Source: a virus
Strand: one strand, 5' to 3'
Length of the DNA: 33,107 bases
Virus record (IMG/VR): IMGVR_UViG_3300032304_002271
Span: 1-33,107 of that record
Below, in pieces: positions 332-28,713 of the stretch; positions within the stretch are counted from its first letter, which is position 1, and each line of letters begins with the position of its first letter. The position numbers and the translations under genes were made by a program. The notes under the pieces are model-generated. The model saw nothing but the letters and a program-made list of their open reading frames with translations, made no database searches and was not told where the DNA came from.

Positions 332-2560
332 TTAACAACAGAGTTACTTGCAGGGAACAACATTGTATTAACATACAATTCAGCCAACGATACCTTAACA
401 ATCGGCGCATCACAAAGTATCCAAGGAACCACAGGCTCGCAGGGAACCACAGGCTCGCAGGGAACCACAGGCTCGCAGGGAACCACAGGCTCGCAGGGAA
501 CCACAGGCTCGCAGGGAACCACAGGCTCGCAGGGAACAACAGGATCGCAGGGAACAACAGGATCGCAGGGAACCACAGGCAGCCAAGGAACACAAGGAAG
601 CACTGCAAATTTAACGACAGAGTTACTTGCAGGTAACAACATTGTATTAACATACAATTCAGCCAACGATACTTTAACAATAGGGGCAGCACAAAGTATC
701 CAAGGAACCACCGGCAGTCAAGGAACTACCGGCGGCCAAGGCATAGCTGGTTCACAAGGAACCACAGGCAGTCAGGGAACCACAGGCAGTCAGGGAACCA
801 CAGGCAGTCAGGGAACCACAGGCAGTCAGGGAACCACAGGCAGTCAGGGAACCACAGGTAGTCAGGGAATACAGGGAATAACTGGACCCGTCGCTGGTTC
901 TGCCAATCAAGTCGTATACAAAAATTCAAGCAATATTGCATCCGGCGACAGCAATTTCACATTTAACGGCACAACTCTCAGGGCAAACCAGATAATAGGC
1001 GGCATACAATCGGTATTCACAGGTGTTCAGAGCACCGTAGGTGGAGGATTTCAGAACTCGGCACAAGGGACGAATAGCACCGTGGGTGGCGGGCAGAACA
1101 ATCTAGCACAAAGTCAAATATCATTCATCGGCGGAGGAGCCAATAACGTTGCTGCCGAAAAGGTTAGACGAGCAAATAGTATAGCATTTAGTACAAGCAG
1201 CATAACGGTGTTTAGTGCAACAGCAGCAGATTTTGATAATACTACCACTAACGCTGTGCAAATAAGATACTTTTATAACGGCACTTGGAATTTAATCACT
1301 AGAACAATTAGTAGTGCCTCTCAGTTCGGAAGTCAGGTAAATTTAACTTTAACGTCTAATGTTGGAGCTAATGGTCAAACTTGGAGCGAAGTCAGTGTTG
1401 TTAACACAGCAGAAACCGACACTGTTGTTGGTCAAGTAATTAATGGAAATAACAACAACGCCAGCGGCAACTACAGCACAGTAGGCGGCGGTCTGAGCAA
1501 TACCGCCAGCAACACCTACAGCACCGTGGGCGGGGGACAGAGCAACACCGCAAGCGGAAACCGCAGCACAGTAGGCGGGGGATTTAGCAACACCGCAAGC
1601 AGCATTTACAGCACCGTGGGCGGGGGATTTAGCAACACAGCAAGCGGACTGCGCAGCACAGTAGGCGGCGGTAGAAACAACACCGCCAGCAACACCTACA
1701 GCACCGTGGGCGGGGGATTTAGCAACACATCAAGCGGAAACCGCAGCACAGTAGGCGGGGGATTTAGCAACACCGCAAGCGGCCAATACAGCATCGTGGG
1801 GGGCGGAGCTCTCAACACCGCCACCGGCAGCAACAGCACCGTGGGCGGGGGAATTGGCAACAACGCCGCCAGCTACTCCAGCACCGTGGGCGGGGGTCAA
1901 AGCAACACCGCCAGCAACACCTACAGCACCGTGGGCGGGGGACTTAGCAACGCGTCAAGCGGAACAAGAAGCACAGTAAGTGGCGGACAAAATAATACCG
2001 CGAGTGGCACGTACAGTTGTGTTCTTGGCGGAGCTCGTGCTGTTAGTTCAAAACACGGAGAGGTAAGTCATGCGGCAGGGAGGTTTGGTTCCGATGGTGA
2101 CGCACAACACAGCATTCTTGTCGCAAGAAGAGAAACCACAAACGCAACCGCCAATCAGGTGCTATTCCTTAATGGAAGTAGCGAAAGGCTGACGATTCCC
2201 GCTGAGACCACATGGACATTCTCAATTAAACTAAGTGCCTATAATGATACAGATAATCAAGGAGGATGGTGGATTTTTAGGGGAGGAATAAGAAGAAATC
2301 AATCTAATGGCACTGCATTGGTAGGATCAATTATAACTGAAAATGGCGTTGAAAGTACTCTTAGCGCCGCCAGTGCCAGTGTTGTGGCTGACGATACCAA
2401 TGAGGCTCTTGAAATAAGGGTTACCGGTGTGGCGAGCAAAACCATTCGTTGGGTTGCAGTGGTTGATATTAGTCAAGTCAGTTCATCAGCAGTGTCATCT
2501 ACTTTATCTGGACTAGGGCTGGCCGGAATGGCAGTTTTAACGGCAGAAATTATACCATGA
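2..2560 (+). CDS. Collagen-like / beta-roll tail fibre protein (5' partial)
   Basis: The reading frame is open from base 2, so the gene enters from outside the window; the ATG at 257 is internal. Visible order: Gly-X-Y collagen repeats (GSQGLT, then GTTGSQ), interrupted by two near-identical copies of a short segment ([13 protein letters not shown]...), then a stretch ending in [16 protein letters not shown]. After that come about 15 beta-roll repeats of the form STVGGGxSNTASxx (15 residues, 45 bp). These resemble the head repeats of YadA-type trimeric adhesins, and an unrelated segment of about 100 residues is inserted after the third repeat. The C-terminal roughly 150 residues form a non-repetitive domain that is probably a trimerising tip. 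Collagen-like triple helices and YadA-like rolls are both trimeric, which fits a long phage fibre that contacts the host. The next gene starts on its stop codon (ATGA), so the fibre and a glycosyltransferase are translationally coupled. Host range determination is inferred. Confidence 0.85.
320..709 (+). repeat. 279-bp direct duplication plus collagen block 2 in the fibre gene
   Basis: A segment of about 110 bp starting at 320 (coding [19 protein letters not shown]...) recurs at 599 with only a few silent or conservative changes, exactly 279 bp (93 codons) later. Between the copies is a run of GGAACCACAGGCTCGCAG units (Gly-Thr-Thr-Gly-Ser-Gln). The whole collagen-plus-spacer unit has been duplicated in frame. 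Confidence 0.85.
704..885 (+). repeat. Collagen-type 18-bp coding repeats, block 3
   Basis: Third run of Gly-Thr-Thr-Gly-Ser-Gln repeats (GGAACCACAGGCAGTCAG units), ending in GIQGITGPV. It uses a different synonymous set (GGCAGTCAG rather than GGCTCGCAG) from block 2, so each block appears to have been amplified separately from its own founder unit. Confidence 0.85.
1030..2040 (+). repeat. 45-bp beta-roll coding repeats (STVGGG units)
   Basis: Three STVGGG/SFIGGG units at about 1030-1150, then an inserted non-repeat segment of about 300 bp, then about 12 further 45-bp units (AGCACCGTGGGCGGGGGA core) from about 1470. Each encodes 15 residues in the register STVGGGxxNTASxxx. Units alternate between NTY and GNR/GLR endings, suggesting two-unit expansion steps. 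Confidence 0.85.
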
Positions 2561-5500
2561 AAAAAGTTGCAGTCTGCTTGCAATTATACCACATAAATTT
2601 ATGGCCAGAATTTGAAAAATTACTAAGGCCAATATCCGACAAGATAAAGCTTTATGTAGCGATATGCGAAGATGAAAATTTTGAAGTAGATTTGAGTGGC
2701 TTTGATCATCAAATATCAATTCACAAAAATTATGGAGTTGATATTGCGCCATTTTTGCATCAAATAAGATGCTTAGAAGAAGACTTATTCATCAAGATCC
2801 ATTCAAAAAAAAGCAAATTTGGCAACAATAATCAAGTAAACTGGAGAGTGGTTTTATTGAATGATCTTATTGGTTCTAAAGAAGTTTTTATTTCTAACGT
2901 AGAGTCAATGCTATCAGATCAAAGTTGTGGCATGATTTGCAATGAAGCATTCTTGTTGAGTGGCGAAATGACAAATGCAAAAAAAACAAAGCATCTCTGT
3001 CAGATAATAGGCATGAATTATGACTTGTATAAAAATTCTCAATTTGCCGCCGGCAATATGTTCATGAGTAGAACCAAGCTGTTTCAGAACAGATTGAACC
3101 AGTATTTTTCTAAACTTGATCTATTGCTAACTAGCGAAGTGGGAAAGGTTAACTGCACGGTTGACGGCACATACTCTCATTCTTTAGAGAGAATTTTTGG
3201 ATACATCATCAAAGAAGAAAACTTAAAGTTTTGTTTTCCTAAGCAAGAAAAAATCAAAATCCTCAATCGTAATGCTCCCAACAAAGAATATTTCAGCCTG
3301 ATAAAAATGTACAATGACGAGTGTTATGTGGTTGAGATTCCAACAATTTTTGGTTCATATCAAGAGGCAAATAACAAGACAATAATTGATTGGAAGCATA
3401 CAAAACAAGACAGTTTCAAGCAAATATACCACAGAACGGCAGAAAAGACACTCATCAAAAGCCTATCGTATCAACTCGCCTATTCTCAGTTCTATGAGCG
3501 ACAAGAGCCTCGTGCAATACCATCATGTGTAAAAACAATTGCTTTTTATTTGCCTCAGTTTCACGAGACATCTGAAAATAATAAATGGTGGGGCAAGGGA
3601 TTTACTGAATGGACTAACACTTCAAAAACTCTGCCGCGTTTTTCTTCACATTACCAGCCTAGAGTCCCCCATCCCGATATAGGCTATTACGATTTGGATG
3701 ATGACAATGTTCTTGACAAGCAAGTCAAAATCGCCAAATCTTCTGGCGTGGATGGGTTTTGCTTCTACTATTACTGGTTTGGTGGCAAAAAGCTACTTGA
3801 TAAGCCTATTAACAATTTCATTCAACGTCAAGACATTGATCATGGATTTATTATATGTTGGGCCAATGAAAACTGGACAAGAAGATGGGATGGACTTGAC
3901 AACGAAATACTTATAGAGCAGCAATACGAAGAGAATTGGGACATTAGATTCATAGAAGATGTTTCAGTACTATTCCAGGATAGACGTTATATTTGCATAA
4001 ACAAAAAGCCAATCATAATTATATACAAGCTATCGGAGATTCCCAATGCCGAGTTGGTCATCAATAATTGGCGCCAATGGTGCAGAGATAATGGCATAGG
4101 TGAGATTAGTGTTTGGGCTGTGTACGATAGCTCATTTTTCAACCACGAGCCATCGTTCATTGATAAATTTGTTGAATTTCCTCCGCGACCGATCTCTACG
4201 GTTGAGCAGTTAGACAAAAGATCTTTGGCCTGTAATCAGTCGGATGCTTACATCTATGACTACGAGAAATTTGTAGATTCTATTCTTCAAAACAAAGGAC
4301 TGGCAGATAGTGTAAGTTTTCCAATTTACCGATGTGTGATGATGGGCTGGGATAATTATGCTCGTCGCAAAGAAGGATGGAGTTCTTGGGCTAAATTTAG
4401 TGGAGATAAGTTTTACAGCTGGTGTCGTAAAGTATGGGAATATACAGTCCGCGCATTCCCCGAAAATGAGCGTTTTATTTTTGTCAACGGATGGAATGAA
4501 TGGGGAGAGGGAACATACCTGGAGCCGGATGCTCGTTTTGGATATGCAAATATCAATACGCTTTCAAGAGCAATAAACAAACTGCCTAACCGCCCAGGGA
4601 TAATTGCTAAAGGGCCAGCAACGCACGCTAATTTACATAACGTCACCATAATAGTTCATCTTCACTTATACTTTTCAGACCTTCTTGACGAGTTTATTGA
4701 TTCAATTAATTGCATCCCTACAACCTATGATTTAATAGTTACCGTTTGTGATCAATTATCTCTAGAATTGGTGAAAAGCAACAAACATCGCTTCATTAGC
4801 GCTTCAAATATTTCAATCAAGTTGGTTCCTAATCGTGGGCGCGACTTGGGTCCATTTATTGTTGAGCTTTCGGACATTATTGACCGATACGAATTTGTTT
4901 TGCACATACATAGCAAGAAGTCAAGGACAGTGAGTTGGGGACACCTATGGAGGAGATACCTCGCAAAAAATCTTCTGGGGAGCGAAAGTAATGTAAAACA
5001 GATTTTAAGTACATTTCTATGCAATCCTGACATTGGAATTATTGGTGTTCCTATTTATGCTCCTATTAGCACTCATCTGTCTTGGGGACCAGGTCAGAAA
5101 TCCAACTGTCAAGACTTATTGAATGATTGTTTGGGGGATTCCTCAACTGTGCCTTCGCTTCCCGATGAGCCCGACTTTTCTGCCGGAAGCTTTTTTTGGG
5201 CGCGCACAAACTCAATTAGGCAACTATTTTCTTTAGGCTTGACGTATGAATCATTTGAATCCGAAGATCAACAGGTTGAATCAACGCTCGCAGAAACTAT
5301 AGAGCGCGTTCTGCCCTACCTGGCCAGGTGCAATCAATACTCTTATGAAAAAGTTGTTGCATTTGACACGGGACCAGGAACCTCTTCTCGCAAAAGAATA
5401 GCCATTTATGTATATTTTGGCAAAGAGACCAGCGTGTCGGCCGAAGATGAATATTTCATAAAATCGCTCTACTCAGAAGTTGACTACTTGCTTTTGGTTT

Positions 5501-6198
5501 CAAATTCAAGGCTATCGCCTGCTGAGAGGTTGTGCTTGGATAGAATTTCTTCAAATATTTACTGTCGGGATAACGTCGGCTATGATTTTGGCGCTTGGAA
5601 GGACTCACTTACTTATCTTGGAATGGACTTCTTGTCAACTTTTGATGAACTCCTGCTTGTGAATTCAAGTTGTATTGGTCCATTCATTCCATGGTCGTCA
5701 GTTTTTGAGACTATGGAAAAGAAAAATGATGACTTTTGGGGTCTTACAATCTTTCCTGAACTTTGTGATTCAAATCGCCCTGAAGCGGTGCATTTTCTGG
5801 ACAAACGAATTCCTAGACACATACAGTCTTTTTTCTTGGCATTCACCAATAAAGTCTTCACAAGTCAATCCTTTCAGGACTATTGGAAATCTGTTGCATT
5901 TACAGCCACGCTAACTGAGGCTGTCGCGCGGTTTGAATGCACTTTAACTGAGCACCTTGCCAAATCGGGCTTCAGCTACTCGGCATATGTTGAAGACCAT
6001 GAACCATTTCAACTTCACGCATCAACTAACCCTAATTTCAATGCCATTTACAATTTTCCTTATCAAATGCTAACGATCGGTTCGCCAGTGATCAAGAATA
6101 AACTAAATATGATGCACGAAAATCAACTATCGCTAGTAAAAGAATTCTTGGCAAAGCACACAGATTACCCTTCAAACATTTTTGAAAACTGGATCTAA
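2557..6198 (+). CDS. Multidomain glycosyltransferase: RgpF-like - WbsX (GT99-type) - RgpF-like - RgpF-like
   Basis: A 1213-residue protein whose ATG overlaps the fibre stop (ATGA). Residues about 326-670 are a WbsX-type glycosyltransferase domain: it opens with [12 protein letters not shown], contains [12 protein letters not shown] near 436 and ends with NGWNEWGEG near 643, the family signatures. Around it are three modules resembling rhamnan synthesis protein F. They fall at residues 1-300, 690-930 and 945-1213, and each carries an N-x-G-x-D-x-(G/A)-(P/A)-(F/W) core ([27 protein letters not shown]). The first two also share an IHSKKS motif. WbsX and RgpF proteins build O-antigen or rhamnose-containing surface polysaccharide in bacteria. 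Coupling to the fibre gene suggests the enzyme glycosylates the fibre; altering host glycan is the alternative. No membrane segment is obvious, so it is probably cytoplasmic. The sugar donor cannot be read from the sequence. Confidence 0.85.
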
Positions 6199-7037
6199 GA
6201 ATCTAAAATTTCTTTCATAATGGCTTTTTTTAAATTCAATCTATTCTGCTGTTTATCTGTGTCATCGGTATGTTTTCCAAGAGAAATATAAAACTCACAA
6301 CATTCGTGCGGTTGAACAAGGGGCTGCGTGTCTTGGGGGTTTCGTACATCAAAACTAAAAATTTCTTGCAAATTTACTAAACCAAGTTGTTGAGTATCTA
6401 AAAGAATAAGCTTCAAACTAGATGGCGTGAATCGCCAATTGTGGCAGTCTATATACCCAGAATTTGATTTCGCCAACTCCATAAGTTCACTTGCTTGTTC
6501 AATGCTGTGTACTAGACCTAACTCTCCGCCAGATCCTTTACCCCATGACATTTGTCCATTTAAAGAGCAGGCTGAAATGAAGTGGTCAAAAACGGCGCCA
6601 GGTGTGTGGCGCGAACGATTTTCAAAATAAGCCTGCAGAACATCCCCGGTGCTACTAGGAAACCGGAAATAATCAAAACAATAACGCCTATCAGGAACAA
6701 TCAACGACAATACGCCCGTTGGCTTTAGAAGAGCAGAACACTGTTGAAGAAAACCGATAAAGTCAGTTGTGTGTTCTATGACATGTGACGCAATAATGTA
6801 ATCATACGCCTCGGTTTTGCCAATTAATTGATCAAGAGGCTGACCAGTCCACACATAATCTACTTCTTCAATATTATCAACATGATATTTGATTTTTAGT
6901 TCGGCGGCGGTCAAATGATCAACAATTTCAACATTAAATCCTTCTTTTTTTGGGGCTATGGGTGCAAAACTTGGTCCAATTTCCAAGCCCACTCCATTAC
7001 GATCAATCATATACAATGCTTTTTCTATTCTATTCAT
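6195..7037 (-). CDS. Class I SAM-dependent methyltransferase
   Basis: 280 residues with a Rossmann methyltransferase core: motif I is GLEIGPS at residues 17-23, an acidic residue ends the next strand (VEIVDH), and YDYIIASHVIEHT at 78-90 matches the motif II region of the Methyltransf_11/23 group. This type usually methylates small molecules or sugars rather than DNA, and no DNA-recognition domain is visible. The gene ends tail to tail with the glycosyltransferase, sharing four bases (ctaa). Its ATG overlaps the stop of the upstream small gene (ATGA), so it is the last gene of a minus-strand unit running from the sulfotransferase at 8419. A role in methylating the glycan made by its neighbours is inferred from context. 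Confidence 0.8.
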   Translation of the reverse strand: MNRIEKALYMIDRNGVGLEIGPSFAPIAPKKEGFNVEIVDHLTAAELKIKYHVDNIEEVDYVWTGQPLDQLIGKTEAYDYIIASHVIEHTTDFIGFLQQCSALLKPTGVLSLIVPDRRYCFDYFRFPSSTGDVLQAYFENRSRHTPGAVFDHFISACSLNGQMSWGKGSGGELGLVHSIEQASELMELAKSNSGYIDCHNWRFTPSSLKLILLDTQQLGLVNLQEIFSFDVRNPQDTQPLVQPHECCEFYISLGKHTDDTDKQQNRLNLKKAIMKEILDS

Positions 7038-7603: not shown

Positions 7604-8419
7604 TTAACCTATATTAGTTACATTTCGCCATACTTCTGTTCCTGAGTATTTATTTTTAAGTGCTGATCCTAGTATTTCCAAGGCTCTATGAGGCACGGGA
7701 GCCACAACAGGTCTTACAGAATGAAGTTCTGGTATTCTATGTATCCCCAGATCATCTTCCTTTGTGTACTGCTGTACATTCTTAAAATCATGATTGAAAA
7801 GGGGTTCTTCCAGAAAATTGTATATTTTTTGCAAGGTTTTTTCCGGATAAGTTGTTAAATTGTCCATTTCTACAAAAAGCAATAATTTACTGTGTCCTCT
7901 AGAGATCGCATCTTTGACTCGGTTATAAGCCAAACCAACGGGCTGTTCTTGGGAAGCCCATATATCGCATCTTCCTTCTAGTGTTTGAGACTTGAAGTAG
8001 TCGGAACTCTCAAACATCCACTGGCTCTGTCCTGTGCTCTTTCGCCAAAGCTGCTCAAAACTTGCAAGTATCTCTGCTACGTCCCTAACTGGTACTATTA
8101 TTTTGGGCGGCTCATTTGTTATGAACTGCACCATCTCTATCAAGGATAGCCAGCCCCGACCCTTATCTATTACAATCTCTTTTTCCGTGCCGTGGTACGA
8201 ATCAAGTACGGCACGAAGAACGGAACGTAACCTTTCGTAGTCTACACCTTCCGCTTGGTGCTCAATGAGGCGGTCCCATTGATTGCGTATGTTGAAAAGG
8301 ACATCATGACAGCCCGATGTTGCAGGCGAAACAAAAAACTTGGGATTTTGTGCAAGAATGTTGCACAATAAAGTAGATCCAGATCTTGGCATTCCGCTGA
8401 TGAAATAATGTCTCTTCAC
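7604..8419 (-). CDS. Sulfotransferase family protein
   Basis: 271 residues with a GTG start (GTG AAG AGA CAT). The N-terminus carries the 5'-phosphosulfate loop of PAPS-dependent sulfotransferases, FISGMPRSGSTLL at residues 6-18. The 3'-phosphate-binding segment is VPVRDVAEILAS, with Arg112 and Ser120. These enzymes move a sulfate group from PAPS to hydroxyls or amines on carbohydrates, proteins or small molecules. The length is typical for the family, with no signal peptide or membrane anchor, so it is probably cytoplasmic. It heads the minus-strand unit that ends with the methyltransferase and lies between two fibre clusters, which suggests it sulfates a phage or host glycan. The acceptor is unknown. 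Confidence 0.85.
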   Translation of the reverse strand: MKRHYFISGMPRSGSTLLCNILAQNPKFFVSPATSGCHDVLFNIRNQWDRLIEHQAEGVDYERLRSVLRAVLDSYHGTEKEIVIDKGRGWLSLIEMVQFITNEPPKIIVPVRDVAEILASFEQLWRKSTGQSQWMFESSDYFKSQTLEGRCDIWASQEQPVGLAYNRVKDAISRGHSKLLLFVEMDNLTTYPEKTLQKIYNFLEEPLFNHDFKNVQQYTKEDDLGIHRIPELHSVRPVVAPVPHRALEILGSALKNKYSGTEVWRNVTNIG

Positions 8420-14997: not shown

Positions 14998-15720
14998 TTA
15001 GCCTTCTTCTAGACTTTGAAGCGTTGCTTTTCCCCAATCGTGAGATTTATTTGCAACGTAATCTTGTGCCAGAGCAGCATCTTGACAAAGTGAAAAACTC
15101 ATTTCGCTTGTCATTTCTATATTCTTAAGTTGACAATTTGCAGTTCGCGTTTCGTTTGAATGTGGTATGCACAAGCATATTGGGGGAGGAACAAACAAAA
15201 AAAGATCATTCTGCATCCTTACTCGAAACTGATAGTTCATGTCGTCACAACCCCACCCCATGGATATACTCTCATCATATCCATTAACTGAGTAGAAGTG
15301 CTCTCGCAAAGCAGCAACTATTCCAGCGCATCCATTATTTCCATGTGCGTCTTCACTACTAAAACTCATGACAATCTTCCTTTCAGTAGAAAACGCTTCA
15401 TTAATATATTCGCAAAATCCCTCGGGAATTAAAATATCGCAATCTAAATTACATAGCACATCGCCACTAGCCATCTTGTGTGCTATGTTTTTGGCATGGG
15501 CGGCAACCCAATATCTCGGTTCAGAAGTTCTAAAAAATTTAACCACACTTTGATTTGAAAGATTTTGTTTTGCCCATTCTTTCAATCCATCTGTGCTGTT
15601 GTAGTCCAATAAGATAAACTCAACATCAGGATAAGAAGATGCATTTTGTATATTCTTGAGATACGTTTGCTCAAGATGAAAAAGCCTATTCATGCATGTG
15701 GTACAAAAAGATATTTTCAA
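14998..15720 (-). CDS. Family 2 (GT-A) glycosyltransferase
   Basis: 240 residues from a TTG that overlaps the upstream stop (TTGA). This start gives the N-terminus MKISFCTTCMNRL usual for the family; another TTG 33 bases upstream (15753) would add 11 residues and a longer overlap. The GT-A fold is shown by the nucleotide-binding start, FILLDYNSTDGLKEW, the metal-binding NLDCDIL (a DxD motif), and GYDESISMGWGCDDMNYQFR. The last resembles the acceptor-side motif of GT7C/GT27-type enzymes (gWGxDDxxxxxR). A sugar nucleotide donor is expected, but the sugar cannot be told. It is the third gene of a minus-strand unit after a sulfotransferase-like gene and a 2OG oxygenase, which suggests stepwise modification of one product. 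Confidence 0.8.
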   Translation of the reverse strand: MKISFCTTCMNRLFHLEQTYLKNIQNASSYPDVEFILLDYNSTDGLKEWAKQNLSNQSVVKFFRTSEPRYWVAAHAKNIAHKMASGDVLCNLDCDILIPEGFCEYINEAFSTERKIVMSFSSEDAHGNNGCAGIVAALREHFYSVNGYDESISMGWGCDDMNYQFRVRMQNDLFLFVPPPICLCIPHSNETRTANCQLKNIEMTSEMSFSLCQDAALAQDYVANKSHDWGKATLQSLEEG

Positions 15721-16343
15721 GACTTGAAAAACCCCACAATAGTTGCTCGACAATGGTCGCCCGCGTCGTCATCTACCCGATTAATAGAATGCCAGACGCC
15801 TGGGCGGGTGATCACAAGACGATTGGGCTTAGCAGTGATGTAAGTTCCCATTCCATGTAAAGAAAGAAATTTATCTTCTTCTTTATGATCAAGGTGTGGG
15901 GCGGGCAAACTAAAATCTGGGGGAGTTGAGGCAATCATCAATTCTCCGCCCCAAGTTGATCCCCATTCCGGGTGTATGTAAAAGATGGCCGCACCTTCGT
16001 ATCCTAGATCATTGTGCCACGATAATTTTGTGCCTCTTGGATAAAGATAAGACCTTAAAGTTAATGTTTTCCAATTTGTAATTATTTGTGGACTAGCAGC
16101 AGCAGCATTTTTCACAAGAAAAAGCATGAGATCCATATAATTATTGAATGGAGCATTTTCTGTCTCGTAGTTTTTGCTTCCAATACAGGCGCCGTCAGTA
16201 AGCCTCCAAACTTTTGACCATCCTCCTATATGCGGCATGGAATAGTCTTCTGCTTGTGCTGCTTGCCAAACAGAAAGAAATTGTTCTTGTTCCAGCACAT
16301 CATCATATACTACAAAATCAGAAGTTTCCGTGGATTTTATCAT
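15717..16343 (-). CDS. 2-oxoglutarate/Fe(II)-dependent oxygenase (prolyl-4-hydroxylase-like)
   Basis: 208 residues from the ATG that overlaps the upstream stop (ATGA) and follows an AAAGGTG ribosome site; a GTG six bases earlier is an alternative. The jelly-roll core has the metal triad of Fe(II)/2OG dioxygenases: KLSWHNDLGYEG (His110, Asp112) and PGVWHSINRV (His185). Arg199 in CRATIVGFF would bind 2-oxoglutarate. The GGELMI segment between them is typical of the prolyl-4-hydroxylase-like subfamily. Proteins of this group hydroxylate prolines, other side chains or sugars. It is coupled to a glycosyltransferase on one side and a sulfotransferase-like gene on the other. Hydroxylation could create the attachment point for sugar or sulfate. 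Confidence 0.8.
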   Translation of the reverse strand: MIKSTETSDFVVYDDVLEQEQFLSVWQAAQAEDYSMPHIGGWSKVWRLTDGACIGSKNYETENAPFNNYMDLMLFLVKNAAAASPQIITNWKTLTLRSYLYPRGTKLSWHNDLGYEGAAIFYIHPEWGSTWGGELMIASTPPDFSLPAPHLDHKEEDKFLSLHGMGTYITAKPNRLVITRPGVWHSINRVDDDAGDHCRATIVGFFKS

Positions 16344-16939
16344 GCGCACCTTTTCAAATTTATGTTGTTAAGATAGTAATAGTATCTTTCATAAGCGTCT
16401 TGAGACTCTTTTACGATGGATTCTCGAACAGAGTCAGAATAATCCGCTACGAAATCTTCATGGCTAACTTTGATGGGATCATTTAATCCCAAATATTCTT
16501 CAATTGTACTAAAAGCACGCCCACTCGCAAGATCATCCCATGAAAGAAAAAGGGCGTCCGGAGTTTTGCGAGCCATTTCACAAATCCTTCGAAGTCTAAA
16601 TCTATAATAATTTGCCGCATAAGTCTCAGAGTAGATTTTGCCCTGGGTGGATATTATTGAATTTAAAGATGGTCTGGCTGGCCTTATCACATATATAAAT
16701 TTACAGAAATTAAAGAACGATTTATGCGACATGCTGGGGTTGTAAAGAAGATGATCGCCATAAATAGCCGAGTTGTCTCTCCGCTTGTGTGGGCTAGAAA
16801 ACATCCAATTTAATGATTCTGGGCTGTCGTACCTATTTTGCGAATTATAAATAGTACATGCTGGGTTGTCATTAATTATACGAACAAGATCATCAGAACC
16901 CGATCCCAGATGACTAACTATAAAGCAGACTTTCTTCAT
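16340..16939 (-). CDS. Sulfotransferase-like P-loop protein
   Basis: 199 residues from the ATG at 16939, which gives the expected N-terminus MKKVCFIVSHLGSGSDDL. A longer frame back to 17008 would overlap the divergent portal gene and is less likely. The N-terminal FIVSHLGSGSDDLVRII matches the phosphosulfate loop of sulfotransferases, although the usual Ser/Thr after the Gly-Ser pair is replaced (GSGSDD). IYVIRPARPSLNSII (Arg86, Ser94) fits the 3'-phosphate site. The family would transfer sulfate from PAPS. It is the first gene of the minus-strand unit 16939-14998. Because the loop is atypical it could use a different nucleotide or be a distant kinase-like relative. Confidence 0.65.
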   Translation of the reverse strand: MKKVCFIVSHLGSGSDDLVRIINDNPACTIYNSQNRYDSPESLNWMFSSPHKRRDNSAIYGDHLLYNPSMSHKSFFNFCKFIYVIRPARPSLNSIISTQGKIYSETYAANYYRFRLRRICEMARKTPDALFLSWDDLASGRAFSTIEEYLGLNDPIKVSHEDFVADYSDSVRESIVKESQDAYERYYYYLNNINLKRCA

Positions 16940-16974: not shown

Positions 16975-19473
16975 ATGCCCTGGTGGGATTTTTATAAACT
17001 TTGGACATATCAATTCGAAAAAGGTCCGATCGAAAGAGTGGATAATAGTCAGATTACAGGCGCAGGCATGGTTGTCCCAGATGCCATGCCAGACCTTAGA
17101 GGAGATCAATACAGTGCTGGACAATCTCAATTAAGACTCCACGACAGCAATGATTTTATAGATTTATCAACTGTTACAAATAGACAGTCTCGATACAAAG
17201 AATACGAAAGGCTCCGAAGCGTTGCGGAAGTCGAAATGGCAATGACCGTCATAAGTGATGAAGCATGCATAGCCGGAGAAACAAGAATATCAACCCTTTT
17301 TGATGGACCAAGAACCATAGAGTGGCTTACAGATAGATGGAAAAAAGATCCAAGTCCATTTTTGGTGTACTGCTGGGACTTTGACAAAGAAGACTATACC
17401 CTTGGATGGGCATATGAACCTAGGAAGGTAAAGAAATCTAAAACTATTAAAGTTTTGATGGATGATGGCCACACCTTCACAGTAACAACGGATCATCGCA
17501 TATTAAAACGAGATCAAGAATGGATCGAAGCAGGAGATCTAAAGGAAGGCGATGAATTGATGCCATTCTATAGGCTAGATCCGAATAGAAATTTAACTAA
17601 AGCAAAAAATCGTCAATTTCCAAGAATATTCACATTTAACGGATGGAAGCACGAAAGACAATTCATTGACGAATGGAGAGATAAAAGAACCAAGGAAAAA
17701 TACAAGAAATTAAATGAAGCAAGCAGACTCATTGCGGCAGGAACAACATGCAAATCAGTTGAAAAAATCATGCGACATCCATGGAAGAGTGTGCATAACT
17801 GGATAACAAGGGAAGGGTTTAGTGGAAGAGAGCTTAAATGGCTAGGCGAACACGAAGATAAAAGAAAAGTTCTAGGAATATTACCTGGTCCAGAAGTGCA
17901 AGTTTATGATTTGAGCGTCAAAGATCATGAAAATTTCTGCACCGATTCAGTTGTCATGCATAACTGCCAGAAAAATGAAGACGGCGATATATTCAAAATT
18001 GAATCTGACAACGAAGAAGTTAGAAAAGAATTAGAATTTCTTTGTTTCAACAGAAAAATGCTAAATCTTAATAGAAAAATTTGGCAGATGGTCAAAAAAC
18101 TCTGCGTATTCGGTGACGGTTTTTATGAACTCATAACAGATCCAACCAATCCCAAAGAAGGAATATTAAAAATTCAAGAACTTCCAGCGGAAAGTATGTA
18201 CAAGATAGTTACAACCAAAGGAAGAGTTGTCGAATACCAGCAAAGTAGAGAAGGTCCAGACTATCAGGCATTAACAAGAAGTAATGTCACAACAGCCACT
18301 GACCAAGAACTTATGCAGTCTACAGCAATTAGATTCGCGCCATCTCAAGTAATTCATATGTTCCTTGGAGAAGATAGAAAAACCTTCTACCCATACGGTC
18401 AAAGCCTTATGGAACCAGCAAGAGGTCCAGCACATCAATTGCGACTCATGGAAGACGCAATGATGGTATATCGTCTTACAAGAAGTCCAGAAAGAAGAGT
18501 TTTTTATATCGATGTTGGCCAATTGCCGCCATTCAAGGCAGAAGCATTTGTCGAACGAATGAAGGACCAGTTCAGAAAGAAAAAAGTTCAAACAAGAACA
18601 GGAACCGGACAGGGAGCAAATGCCGTAGACGAAAGATGGCACGCTCCAGCGGCTGATGAAGATTACTGGATTCCTATCAGACCTAATGCAAACACAAGAA
18701 TAGACACACTTCCTGGAGCCCAGAATCTAGGAGAGATCGATGATGCACTCTATTTCAGAAATAAACTTTTCACTGCTCTGAACTTTCCAAAGAATTATCT
18801 CAGCAATGAAGATGTCGGAGCAACAAGAATCACCTTGTCTGCTCAAGATGCTAGATTCGCAAGAATGATCGAAAGAATACAAGCAACCTTAGAAGATGGA
18901 ATTTTAGAAGTCTGTGAGAGACACCTTGAAATGCGTGGATTTCCTCAAGAATCATTTGAAGATCTTAAAATACAAATGAATCCTCCTTCAAGTTGGAGAG
19001 AATTGAGTGAAGCCGAAGTAATGAACAACAGAATCAGCGCTGTGACGACTCTCAAATCAAGCACTCTGATGAGCGATTTTGATCTTTTAACAAAATATAT
19101 GAAGATCCCACAGGACGAAGCAGAAAGAATAGTTGCAAGAAACAAGATTCAAAAAATCGAAGATCTCAAGATTCAGATAATAGGTCAAAATCCACAACTA
19201 CTCGGCGTGGGGACACCAGGACCACAATCTGGCGAGCCTGAGATGGGTACGGAAGCAGGAGGACCGACTCCTAATCTAGAATTGTCTCAAGAACAACCGC
19301 AAGAGGAAACTCCAGAAGAACCATCAGAACAACCTGAACAAGAGGAAACCCAATCTAAACCAGAACCACTTCCCGAGCCTTCCGAAGAAGATATTAAAAA
19401 ATATAACTTAGGAATAGAAGACTATAGCAGAACAATAGATAGTGAAGAAATAGATTGGAGCGAGGAGGGGTAG
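16975..19473 (+). CDS. T4 gp20-type portal vertex protein interrupted by an intein
   Basis: 832 residues as translated, about 599 after removal of the 233-residue intein (T4 gp20 is 524). The ATG follows GCGAGG. The N-terminal extein ends at VISDEA and continues after the intein as CQKNEDGDIFKIESDNEEV. This is the conserved DEC-x-KNEDG region of T4-like portals, followed by LNLNRKIWQMVKKLCVFGDGFYEL and YPYGQSLMEPARGPAHQLRLMEDAMMVYRL, both recognisable gp20 segments. The portal forms the dodecameric ring through which DNA is packaged and where the tail attaches. The last roughly 90 residues are an acidic Pro/Glu/Gln-rich tail unlike T4 gp20. Because the portal is essential, splicing is presumably efficient. 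Confidence 0.92.
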   Translation: MPWWDFYKLWTYQFEKGPIERVDNSQITGAGMVVPDAMPDLRGDQYSAGQSQLRLHDSNDFIDLSTVTNRQSRYKEYERLRSVAEVEMAMTVISDEACIAGETRISTLFDGPRTIEWLTDRWKKDPSPFLVYCWDFDKEDYTLGWAYEPRKVKKSKTIKVLMDDGHTFTVTTDHRILKRDQEWIEAGDLKEGDELMPFYRLDPNRNLTKAKNRQFPRIFTFNGWKHERQFIDEWRDKRTKEKYKKLNEASRLIAAGTTCKSVEKIMRHPWKSVHNWITREGFSGRELKWLGEHEDKRKVLGILPGPEVQVYDLSVKDHENFCTDSVVMHNCQKNEDGDIFKIESDNEEVRKELEFLCFNRKMLNLNRKIWQMVKKLCVFGDGFYELITDPTNPKEGILKIQELPAESMYKIVTTKGRVVEYQQSREGPDYQALTRSNVTTATDQELMQSTAIRFAPSQVIHMFLGEDRKTFYPYGQSLMEPARGPAHQLRLMEDAMMVYRLTRSPERRVFYIDVGQLPPFKAEAFVERMKDQFRKKKVQTRTGTGQGANAVDERWHAPAADEDYWIPIRPNANTRIDTLPGAQNLGEIDDALYFRNKLFTALNFPKNYLSNEDVGATRITLSAQDARFARMIERIQATLEDGILEVCERHLEMRGFPQESFEDLKIQMNPPSSWRELSEAEVMNNRISAVTTLKSSTLMSDFDLLTKYMKIPQDEAERIVARNKIQKIEDLKIQIIGQNPQLLGVGTPGPQSGEPEMGTEAGGPTPNLELSQEQPQEETPEEPSEQPEQEETQSKPEPLPEPSEEDIKKYNLGIEDYSRTIDSEEIDWSEEG
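17266..17964 (+). mobile_element. Intein in the portal protein (233 residues)
   Basis: Residues 98-330 of the portal translation. Block A starts with the nucleophile Cys98 (CIAGETRIST). Block B is GHTFTVTTDHRIL, with the conserved TxxH. Block F is VYDLSVKDHENFCTD, block G is VVMHN, and the +1 residue is Cys331. All class 1 splicing residues (Cys1, B-block Thr/His, penultimate His, terminal Asn, Cys+1) are present, so it should splice. No LAGLIDADG or HNH nuclease motif is seen. In the linker, residues about 246-285 (NEASRLIAAG, then SVEKIMRHPWKSVHNWI) read like a helix-turn-helix, probably left over from a lost homing endonuclease. Confidence 0.9.
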
Positions 19474-27153: not shown

Positions 27154-28713
27154 ATGGATTATATATTGGTTGATTTGGGCGAAGTGGCGAATGCCGAAAA
27201 GAAGGATTGGGGGGCTGGAGTGCTGATATTCTCGGACGAATGGTCCGAGAGACGAAAACAAGTCTTGGGCTTCTTGGCCTCAAAAAGTGGAGAGGGGGAG
27301 AAGTTGAATGCCAGGGACTGCGTAGTGAAAGAGATTTCGGGTTTGGACGCAAGGCCCTTTCTGGAGGACCACCACATACAGGGCTCCAACAACCTTTCGT
27401 TGGTTTTCTTCGGTTTGTTCCACGATTCGGGGATGGTCGCCGTCATGTCTTTGGGTCGGCACAGCAGGAACATATCGGAGAACAGGATTGTTCTTGATCG
27501 GTTCTGCGTGAGGGCGGGAGCGATTGTTCGGGGTGGCGCGAGCAAGTTGTTCGGCGAGGCGATGAAGTGGGCCAAGGAGAGAAAGTACGACGAAATAATC
27601 AGCTTCAGCGACAATAGGCTGAGCGACGGGAAGGTGTATGAAGTCCTCGGGTTCTACATGGAGAAGGAGCACAAGTCCGACTATTTTTATGTGGATTTGC
27701 AGTCGGGCAGGAGATTGAGCAAGCAGAGTCAGATGAAATCCTCGTCCAAGTGTCCAGCGGGAATGACCGAGTCGCAATGGGCGAAGCAAAGGGGGTTGGT
27801 GAGGTTTTGGGACAAGGGTAAGAAGAGGTGGGTGTTCCCTCTGAACGAGTCTTTCGTTTCTTGGACCAAGAAGTTGTCCGAGAAGTGCGCCAACCAGAAC
27901 AAGAACGGAGATTTCAAACAATCTCACATCAGGGGATATTTCAAGTCTAAGAAGAACGGCAAGGACGTATATTACGGATCGTCCTATGAGTTGAGATGCG
28001 TTTTCCTTTTGGAGGAAGATGCCGAAGTGGTCTCCTACGACAGGGGCGAGTGCTTCGAGGACTCCAAGGGAAAGTTCAGAAATCCTGATCTTTTCGTGGT
28101 CTATTTGGATGGTAAGAAAGAAATATTGGAGGTCAAGCCCAAGTCTAGGCTTGGAGAGGAGGACGTGGTCGAGCAAGTGGAGGAGTCAAGGAAGTATTCG
28201 GCTGAAAAAGAGATGGGCTTCAAGGTTTGGACGGAGGATCATTCTGGGTTAGACGACGCCGGCAAAATAATAGATTGGGCTCGAGAGTTCTTAGCGGAGC
28301 GTGGCGATCCCAAGTGGAAAGAGGCGAAGAAAGCGTCTAGCGTCAAGCGATCTAAGAAATTCTACGACACCCACATCGCCACCGACAAGGTCTCCGTCTT
28401 CTGCGAGTACTGCCAGGCGACCCACGAGGCCCTTAGATTGACTCACGACAAGAACATAGCCCGCAACGGCCGGTACATCTGCGAGCGCGAGGGAGGCCAT
28501 ATAGCGGGCAGCAGGCCCAAGAAGAAGAAGGACAACCCGCACGCCGCTTCAGGACGCAAGGAGTGCCTCGGGTGCAAGCAGGTCTTGTCTTTCGACAATT
28601 TCGGAACTGACAAGGGCCGTTCGGACGGCTACGCCAGCAAGTGCAAGGAGTGCAGGAGGAAAGCGGCCAACGAGAAATACAAGGCCAAAGAAAAAAGGCC
28701 TATCGACAAATAA
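27154..28713 (+). CDS. Composite homing-type endonuclease: GNAT-like domain, PD-(D/E)XK and two zinc fingers
   Basis: 519 residues with an AAAGGG ribosome site. Residues about 55-190 are the GNAT-like domain found at the N-terminus of some phage endonucleases (PFLEDHHIQG, VAVMSLGRHSRN, DRFCVRAG, GGASKLFGEAMKW, FSDNRLSDGKVYEVLGF). Residues 255-380 are a PD-(D/E)XK nuclease: YGSSYELR (Glu279), RNPDLFVVY (Asp312) and ILEVKPK (Glu326-x-Lys328). Next is a ribbon (Cys417, Cys420, Cys443) resembling the N-terminal ribbon of the neighbouring nuclease. A final Cys4 finger (471, 474, 497, 500) follows, with CKQVLSFDNFGTDKGRSDGYASKCKEC. Acetyltransferase activity is not implied. Base composition is richer in G and C than nearby genes, suggesting recent arrival. 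Confidence 0.8.
   Translation: MDYILVDLGEVANAEKKDWGAGVLIFSDEWSERRKQVLGFLASKSGEGEKLNARDCVVKEISGLDARPFLEDHHIQGSNNLSLVFFGLFHDSGMVAVMSLGRHSRNISENRIVLDRFCVRAGAIVRGGASKLFGEAMKWAKERKYDEIISFSDNRLSDGKVYEVLGFYMEKEHKSDYFYVDLQSGRRLSKQSQMKSSSKCPAGMTESQWAKQRGLVRFWDKGKKRWVFPLNESFVSWTKKLSEKCANQNKNGDFKQSHIRGYFKSKKNGKDVYYGSSYELRCVFLLEEDAEVVSYDRGECFEDSKGKFRNPDLFVVYLDGKKEILEVKPKSRLGEEDVVEQVEESRKYSAEKEMGFKVWTEDHSGLDDAGKIIDWAREFLAERGDPKWKEAKKASSVKRSKKFYDTHIATDKVSVFCEYCQATHEALRLTHDKNIARNGRYICEREGGHIAGSRPKKKKDNPHAASGRKECLGCKQVLSFDNFGTDKGRSDGYASKCKECRRKAANEKYKAKEKRPIDK

Follow-up and report, generated by a model that had tools for sequence, protein, structure and literature searches.

What a complete intein with a helix-turn-helix (HTH) in place of a nuclease might be doing in the portal gene of a phage was the question raised by a 33,107-nucleotide stretch of viral DNA (IMG/VR record IMGVR_UViG_3300032304_002271, positions 1 to 33,107), hereafter called the window. 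The ORF at positions 16975–19473 (coordinates on the plus strand) encodes an 832-residue T4-type portal protein (Portal_T4, E 4e-77; match to phrog_213), which is broken at residue 98 by a 233-residue insert at 17266–17964. The insert matched Intein_splicing (PF14890, 2e-11 when searched alone), TIGR01445 intein_Nterm (6e-9) and TIGR01443 intein_Cterm (1.5e-3), and these three matches, like that to Portal_T4, exceeded the curated cut-offs. The N-extein (16975–17265), delimited by the ORF and by alignment with the intein-free portals of contigs L160 and L218, ends in VISDEA, and the C-extein (17965–19470), in which Portal_T4 covers residues 343–719, starts with the Cys+1 of CQKNEDG. The borders are exact (DEA before Cys1, His232-Asn233 before CQKNEDG), as relatives at 42–76% identity aligned end to end over the identical 233 residues and the L160 and L218 portals join DEA directly to CQ; more distant gp20 proteins also lack the insert. 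Every class 1 feature was present: Cys1 and T74-x-D-H77 in the Hint-N half (17266–17577; TIGR01445, PF14890), and VYDLSVKDHENF and the terminal VMHN, with His232-Asn233, in the Hint-C half (17863–17964; TIGR01443), followed by Cys+1. The insert was thus confirmed as a complete class 1 intein in a T4-type portal, and from its intact residues it is predicted to be splicing-competent.

An AlphaFold2 model built with 64 relatives (pLDDT 96.4, pTM 0.91) showed the Hint fold, with a Z of 21.7 to both 8ubs and 2in0, and solved inteins superposed on it with Z values of up to 21.7 (1.4 Å over 139 residues); as the list of structural matches for whole-protein models is filled by the Hint domain, these values reflect Hint and not the fold of the linker. 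Nuclease-less mini-inteins such as the Mtu RecA splicing domain and Pho RadA share this Hint fold (Z 21.7 and 16.9–18.4) and likewise have no nuclease, but their linkers are short, whereas that of the portal intein is conserved, structured and roughly 90 residues long. Its best conserved part is the motif FPRI.T..GW.HERQFIDEW (GW motif; residues 118–140, 17617–17685), modelled as a beta hairpin and a helix, and behind it lies an HTH-like helical domain (residues 145–196, 17698–17853) with helices at 147–157, 162–169, 173–182 and 187–193. Among 39 linkers of the family, HTH_23 matched 12 (best 1.1e-4) and HTH_28 matched 6 (1.1e-5). The match of the window's own linker, searched alone, was below significance, so its HTH assignment rests on family membership and the model. 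A small-terminase PHROG matched 3 of the 39 linkers (3.8e-5) and, since other HTH families match them too, a packaging role is to be taken as a lead only. The alignment with RtcB_rel_intein2 (NF052663) spanned the whole linker of the window intein, and sequence matches of the linker in the PDB were mainly designed helical repeat proteins, uninformative on function. Pfam and NCBIfam scans found no LAGLIDADG or HNH match in the insert or its relatives. On all these points (the class of intein, its position between DEA and CQKNEDG, the HTH-like linker and the missing nuclease motifs), the original prediction was borne out, and the intein-free gp20 homologues, by which it had proposed to locate the insertion, were found in L160 and L218.

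IMG/VR scans and one uncultured phage record (LR756511, 595 kb) yielded 97 distinct intein-bearing portals, all from one phage clade, which includes huge phages. C1, T74, H77, H232 and N233 were invariant in 97 of 97, the length was 230–236 residues in the 73 complete copies measured, and the insertion lay between DE(A/S/T) and C, with HN before CQ, in nearly all relatives, one variant (L204) having EM before the cysteine. The intein was present without exception in portals whose C-extein was 59% or more identical to that of the window and whose contig reached the site, and the intein-less portals in the same search had identities of 39% or lower. For a scan blind to the intein, we used a DNA pattern for EIDDALYFRN, a portal motif distant from the insertion site: it matched 40 stretches, 34 of them scorable, and the intein was present in 33 and absent from one (L160). 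A search of the whole IMG/VR collection with a pattern for the empty site matched two contigs only, L160 and L218, and given the specificity of the pattern, divergent empty sites may be missed by it. With the N-extein as query, megablast found no matches among phages. The locus L192:4000–6000, which first looked like a freestanding intein gene, turned out to be a portal contig, probably of low quality, with the intein broken by frameshifts. In a contig scan of genomes, one short match was found, to the GyrB intein of a Patescibacteria MAG (L058:1231–4494), whose C-terminus (VYDFSVKDHENF) is similar to that of the portal intein.

The distribution is therefore not patchy (33/34), and the identity of the intein drops along with that of the extein, with no pair in which the intein was markedly more similar than the portal, so that no sign of recent homing was seen. 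Judged from these identities, the portal intein was shown to be vertically inherited and not homing now. In close pairs of intein-bearing portals, the dN/dS of the linker was about 0.02–0.15, which shows strong purifying selection. The suggestion that this might be a decayed or alternative homing intein was not upheld on either count: the linker is constrained and the complete copies are uniform in size, and a near-fixed intein that diverges vertically with its portal and holds no recognisable endonuclease domain does not have the profile of a homing element.

Inteins were found at no fewer than three sites among related portals. A second site in the same portal gene, between VYRL and (T/S)RAPERR, was occupied in 11 of 93 portals, a count that excludes false cases with 90–101 residues retrieved by the regular expression, which were removed by hand; L107 (3753–5000) has weak LAGLIDADG matches there, and the further loci of this intein are L138, L139, L142, L153, L162, L170, L186, L233, L249, L048 and L053. 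A third, occupied in 2 of 92 portals (L123:5745–7007 and L243), lies between LPGA and NLGEID, the intein starting with C and ending with NS, and carries C-terminal helices and an HNH motif, the latter seen in L123. Weak matches to LAGLIDADG or HNH_3 were thus seen in inteins that occupy other positions in related portals. A 484 kb phage record (L025, LR756508.1 145234–150545) encodes a T4-type portal with three inteins, one of them with an HNH motif, and with an empty first site (ADEACAEN). The earlier view that portal inteins are uncommon needs correction in the light of these sites and of those reported in mycobacteriophages, where they are listed for 6 phages of cluster C1 (PMC5050341). The two cases have in common an intein in the portal protein, and they are set apart, by description, in that the mycobacteriophage inteins belong to a single cluster whereas the present one has come close to fixation in a diverse clade.

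Comparison with HNH-bearing phage inteins (the portal inteins of L123, L243 and LR756508, and SP-15) points to a possible origin. Their Hint-N aligned with that of the portal intein up to GDxLMPF (hhalign probability 99.5%). In addition, hmmsearch alignments continued from Hint-N into the segment preceding the HNH core, W..(V/T)HR.V, which lies opposite GW.HERQ of the portal intein, and reached residues 135–146, becoming weak over the HTH and the C-terminal helices of the HNH inteins. These inteins have 300–450 residues, a C-terminal helical stretch and an HNH core (VHHxDFNxxNN), whereas the present insert, with about 230 residues, lacks the core. The portal intein is thus probably an HNH-HTH homing intein that lost its HNH core and retained the DNA-binding part. 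However, local hhalign against the HNH inteins covered only Hint-N, ending near residue 111, and the alignment score came mainly from Hint, which leaves this derivation plausible but not proven.

Apart from the portal, the window contains near its structural genes several genes for enzymes acting on glycans or small molecules: a WbsX/RgpF glycosyltransferase (2557–6198), a methyltransferase (6195–7037), a sulfotransferase (7604–8419) and a 2OG-Fe(II) oxygenase-like protein (15717–16349), this last match being near or below the curated cut-off. In addition, a 519-residue protein (27154–28713) matched Mom (DNA modification) and a TnsA-like nuclease domain, possibly as a fusion, and also homing/HNH and endonuclease VII PHROGs.

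The two contigs with intein-free portals, which come from different metagenomes, had the empty site YADEA-CQIGENG and, upstream of the portal, a freestanding ORF of 235 and 236 residues, respectively, homologous to the entire intein; such a copy was absent from every other locus fetched. Their common gene order was terL, a small ORF, a 2H phosphoesterase/Acb1-like gene, the freestanding gene, a reverse-strand ORF and the portal, L218 differing from L160 by one extra gene. The 2H phosphoesterase-like proteins are encoded at L160:3590–4132 and L218:11221–11781, and that of L160, just upstream of the freestanding gene, matched Acb1 (anti-CBASS, E 1e-7). Both intein-free portals formed a single clade nested among intein-bearing ones, together with L138 and L170 (SH-aLRT 99), and in the intein tree the freestanding proteins were nearest to the L138 intein. 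From this nesting, it is most likely that the intein was ancestral and was then relocated out of the portal in the L160/L218 branch.

The freestanding pair, two copies that stem from one relocation event, showed a dN of 0.35, a dS of 0.69 and an omega of 0.51, without a single stop codon, compared with an omega of about 0.09 (0.106/1.16) for their portals. In 1000 neutral simulations to the same divergence, the mean was 11.9 stops, and none of them ended with zero stops or with so low an omega. When the columns conserved in 90% or more of the inteins were counted, retention in both copies was complete for the GW motif (GW..ERQFIDEW, 9 of 9) and nil for the catalytic residues (0 of 6), with Hint-N at 19 of 32, the HTH at 3 of 5 and Hint-C at 3 of 7. 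Nonsynonymous differences were distributed unevenly between the linker motif and the rest (p 3e-5), and the omega of the HTH was near 1 (0.63/0.73), so that the GW motif, and not clearly the HTH, appears as the target of selection. Constraint on the freestanding genes is therefore real, although relaxed and several-fold weaker than in the inteins, and it bears most heavily on the GW motif.

The near-universal presence of the intein and the existence of freestanding, splicing-dead copies suggest that the insert itself is useful. We regard it as fairly probable that a class 1 intein reached fixation in the portal genes of a single clade, where an HNH-HTH remnant was retained for a role independent of splicing, probably DNA binding. 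In the course of events that we propose, an HNH-HTH homing intein would have been stripped of its nuclease core, with the DNA-binding part left in place; it would then have become fixed in the portal gene and been passed on vertically under the purifying selection on the linker described above; and in one branch it would have left the portal for a gene of its own, where the sequences record the decay of the splicing residues and the persistence of the linker motif. Translation of the portal followed by self-splicing would yield two products, the mature portal and the intein body with its HTH, and the separate role of this body, which we infer from the freestanding descendants, would most likely be exerted through DNA binding. 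Release of two products is the mechanism that best accounts for fixation, vertical inheritance, selection on the linker and relocation. More specifically, and more tentatively, the intein may be a domesticated second product of the portal gene, a DNA-binding (HTH) protein released one-for-one with the portal for phage development or packaging, which in one lineage moved to its own gene and lost splicing; this would make it a phage analogue of the yeast HO case, but one lacking a nuclease.

The first alternative is that the intein persists by inertia, the nuclease having disappeared, exact removal from an essential gene being a rare event and the linker being needed to fold or splice, with the freestanding genes as a slowly dying leftover. 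A fixed intein whose nuclease has ceased to function is a classic outcome of the homing cycle (PMC1654191), and the freestanding omega is much relaxed with respect to the 0.02–0.1 of whole inteins; however, a need for the linker in splicing cannot apply to the freestanding copies, and yet over a dS of 0.69 they kept the whole motif and open frames of a kind that neutral simulation never reached, and we consider this explanation unlikely. More doubtful still is a conditional splicing switch, in which the HTH would sense DNA or a partner and gate portal maturation, with the intein kept in order to time the assembly of heads or packaging. The location of an HTH inside the intein of a packaging protein fits this idea, as does the nuclease-less Pyrococcus RadA intein, which splices in response to ssDNA (PMC8987985), but the splicing-dead descendants persist with no splicing to regulate. 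Finally, it is very improbable that the linker conceals a DNA-cutting domain that went unrecognised and that the freestanding genes encode homing endonucleases of the freestanding kind, since, despite a conserved set of polar residues in the linker motif (R120, E130, R131, Q132, D135, E136) and the precedent of phage inserts that hide nucleases (PMC11855218), the linker has no invariant histidine (H129 occurs in 89% and is lost in the freestanding copies), the insert has no alternative-frame ORF of nuclease size, one weak match, to a family of HNH endonucleases, was all that the PHROGs search of the 39 linkers yielded, and the intein is vertically inherited and nearly fixed.

The closest precedent for the freestanding copies is, by analogy, the yeast HO endonuclease, a non-splicing relative of inteins that exists as a separate protein and acts as a nuclease (PMC7282813). 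Like the HO and WHO elements of yeasts, the L160 and L218 genes are standalone, intein-like ORFs related to a true intein, without exteins and with the splicing residues lost, and they are under purifying selection. In contrast, the HO and WHO proteins are nucleases of the LAGLIDADG type that carry zinc fingers, whereas the phage proteins have an HTH linker and no nuclease motif was seen in them; in addition, unlike in yeasts, the intein from which they descend persists in sister portals. No report of a fixed phage intein with a freestanding, splicing-dead descendant was found in the literature searched, whose coverage was incomplete. It has long been asked whether inteins are mere parasites or of benefit to their hosts. 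Here, the single lineage in which the portal intein was not found keeps the intein body as a splicing-dead gene, which suggests that the function of the body may be separable from splicing and would make its second role testable.
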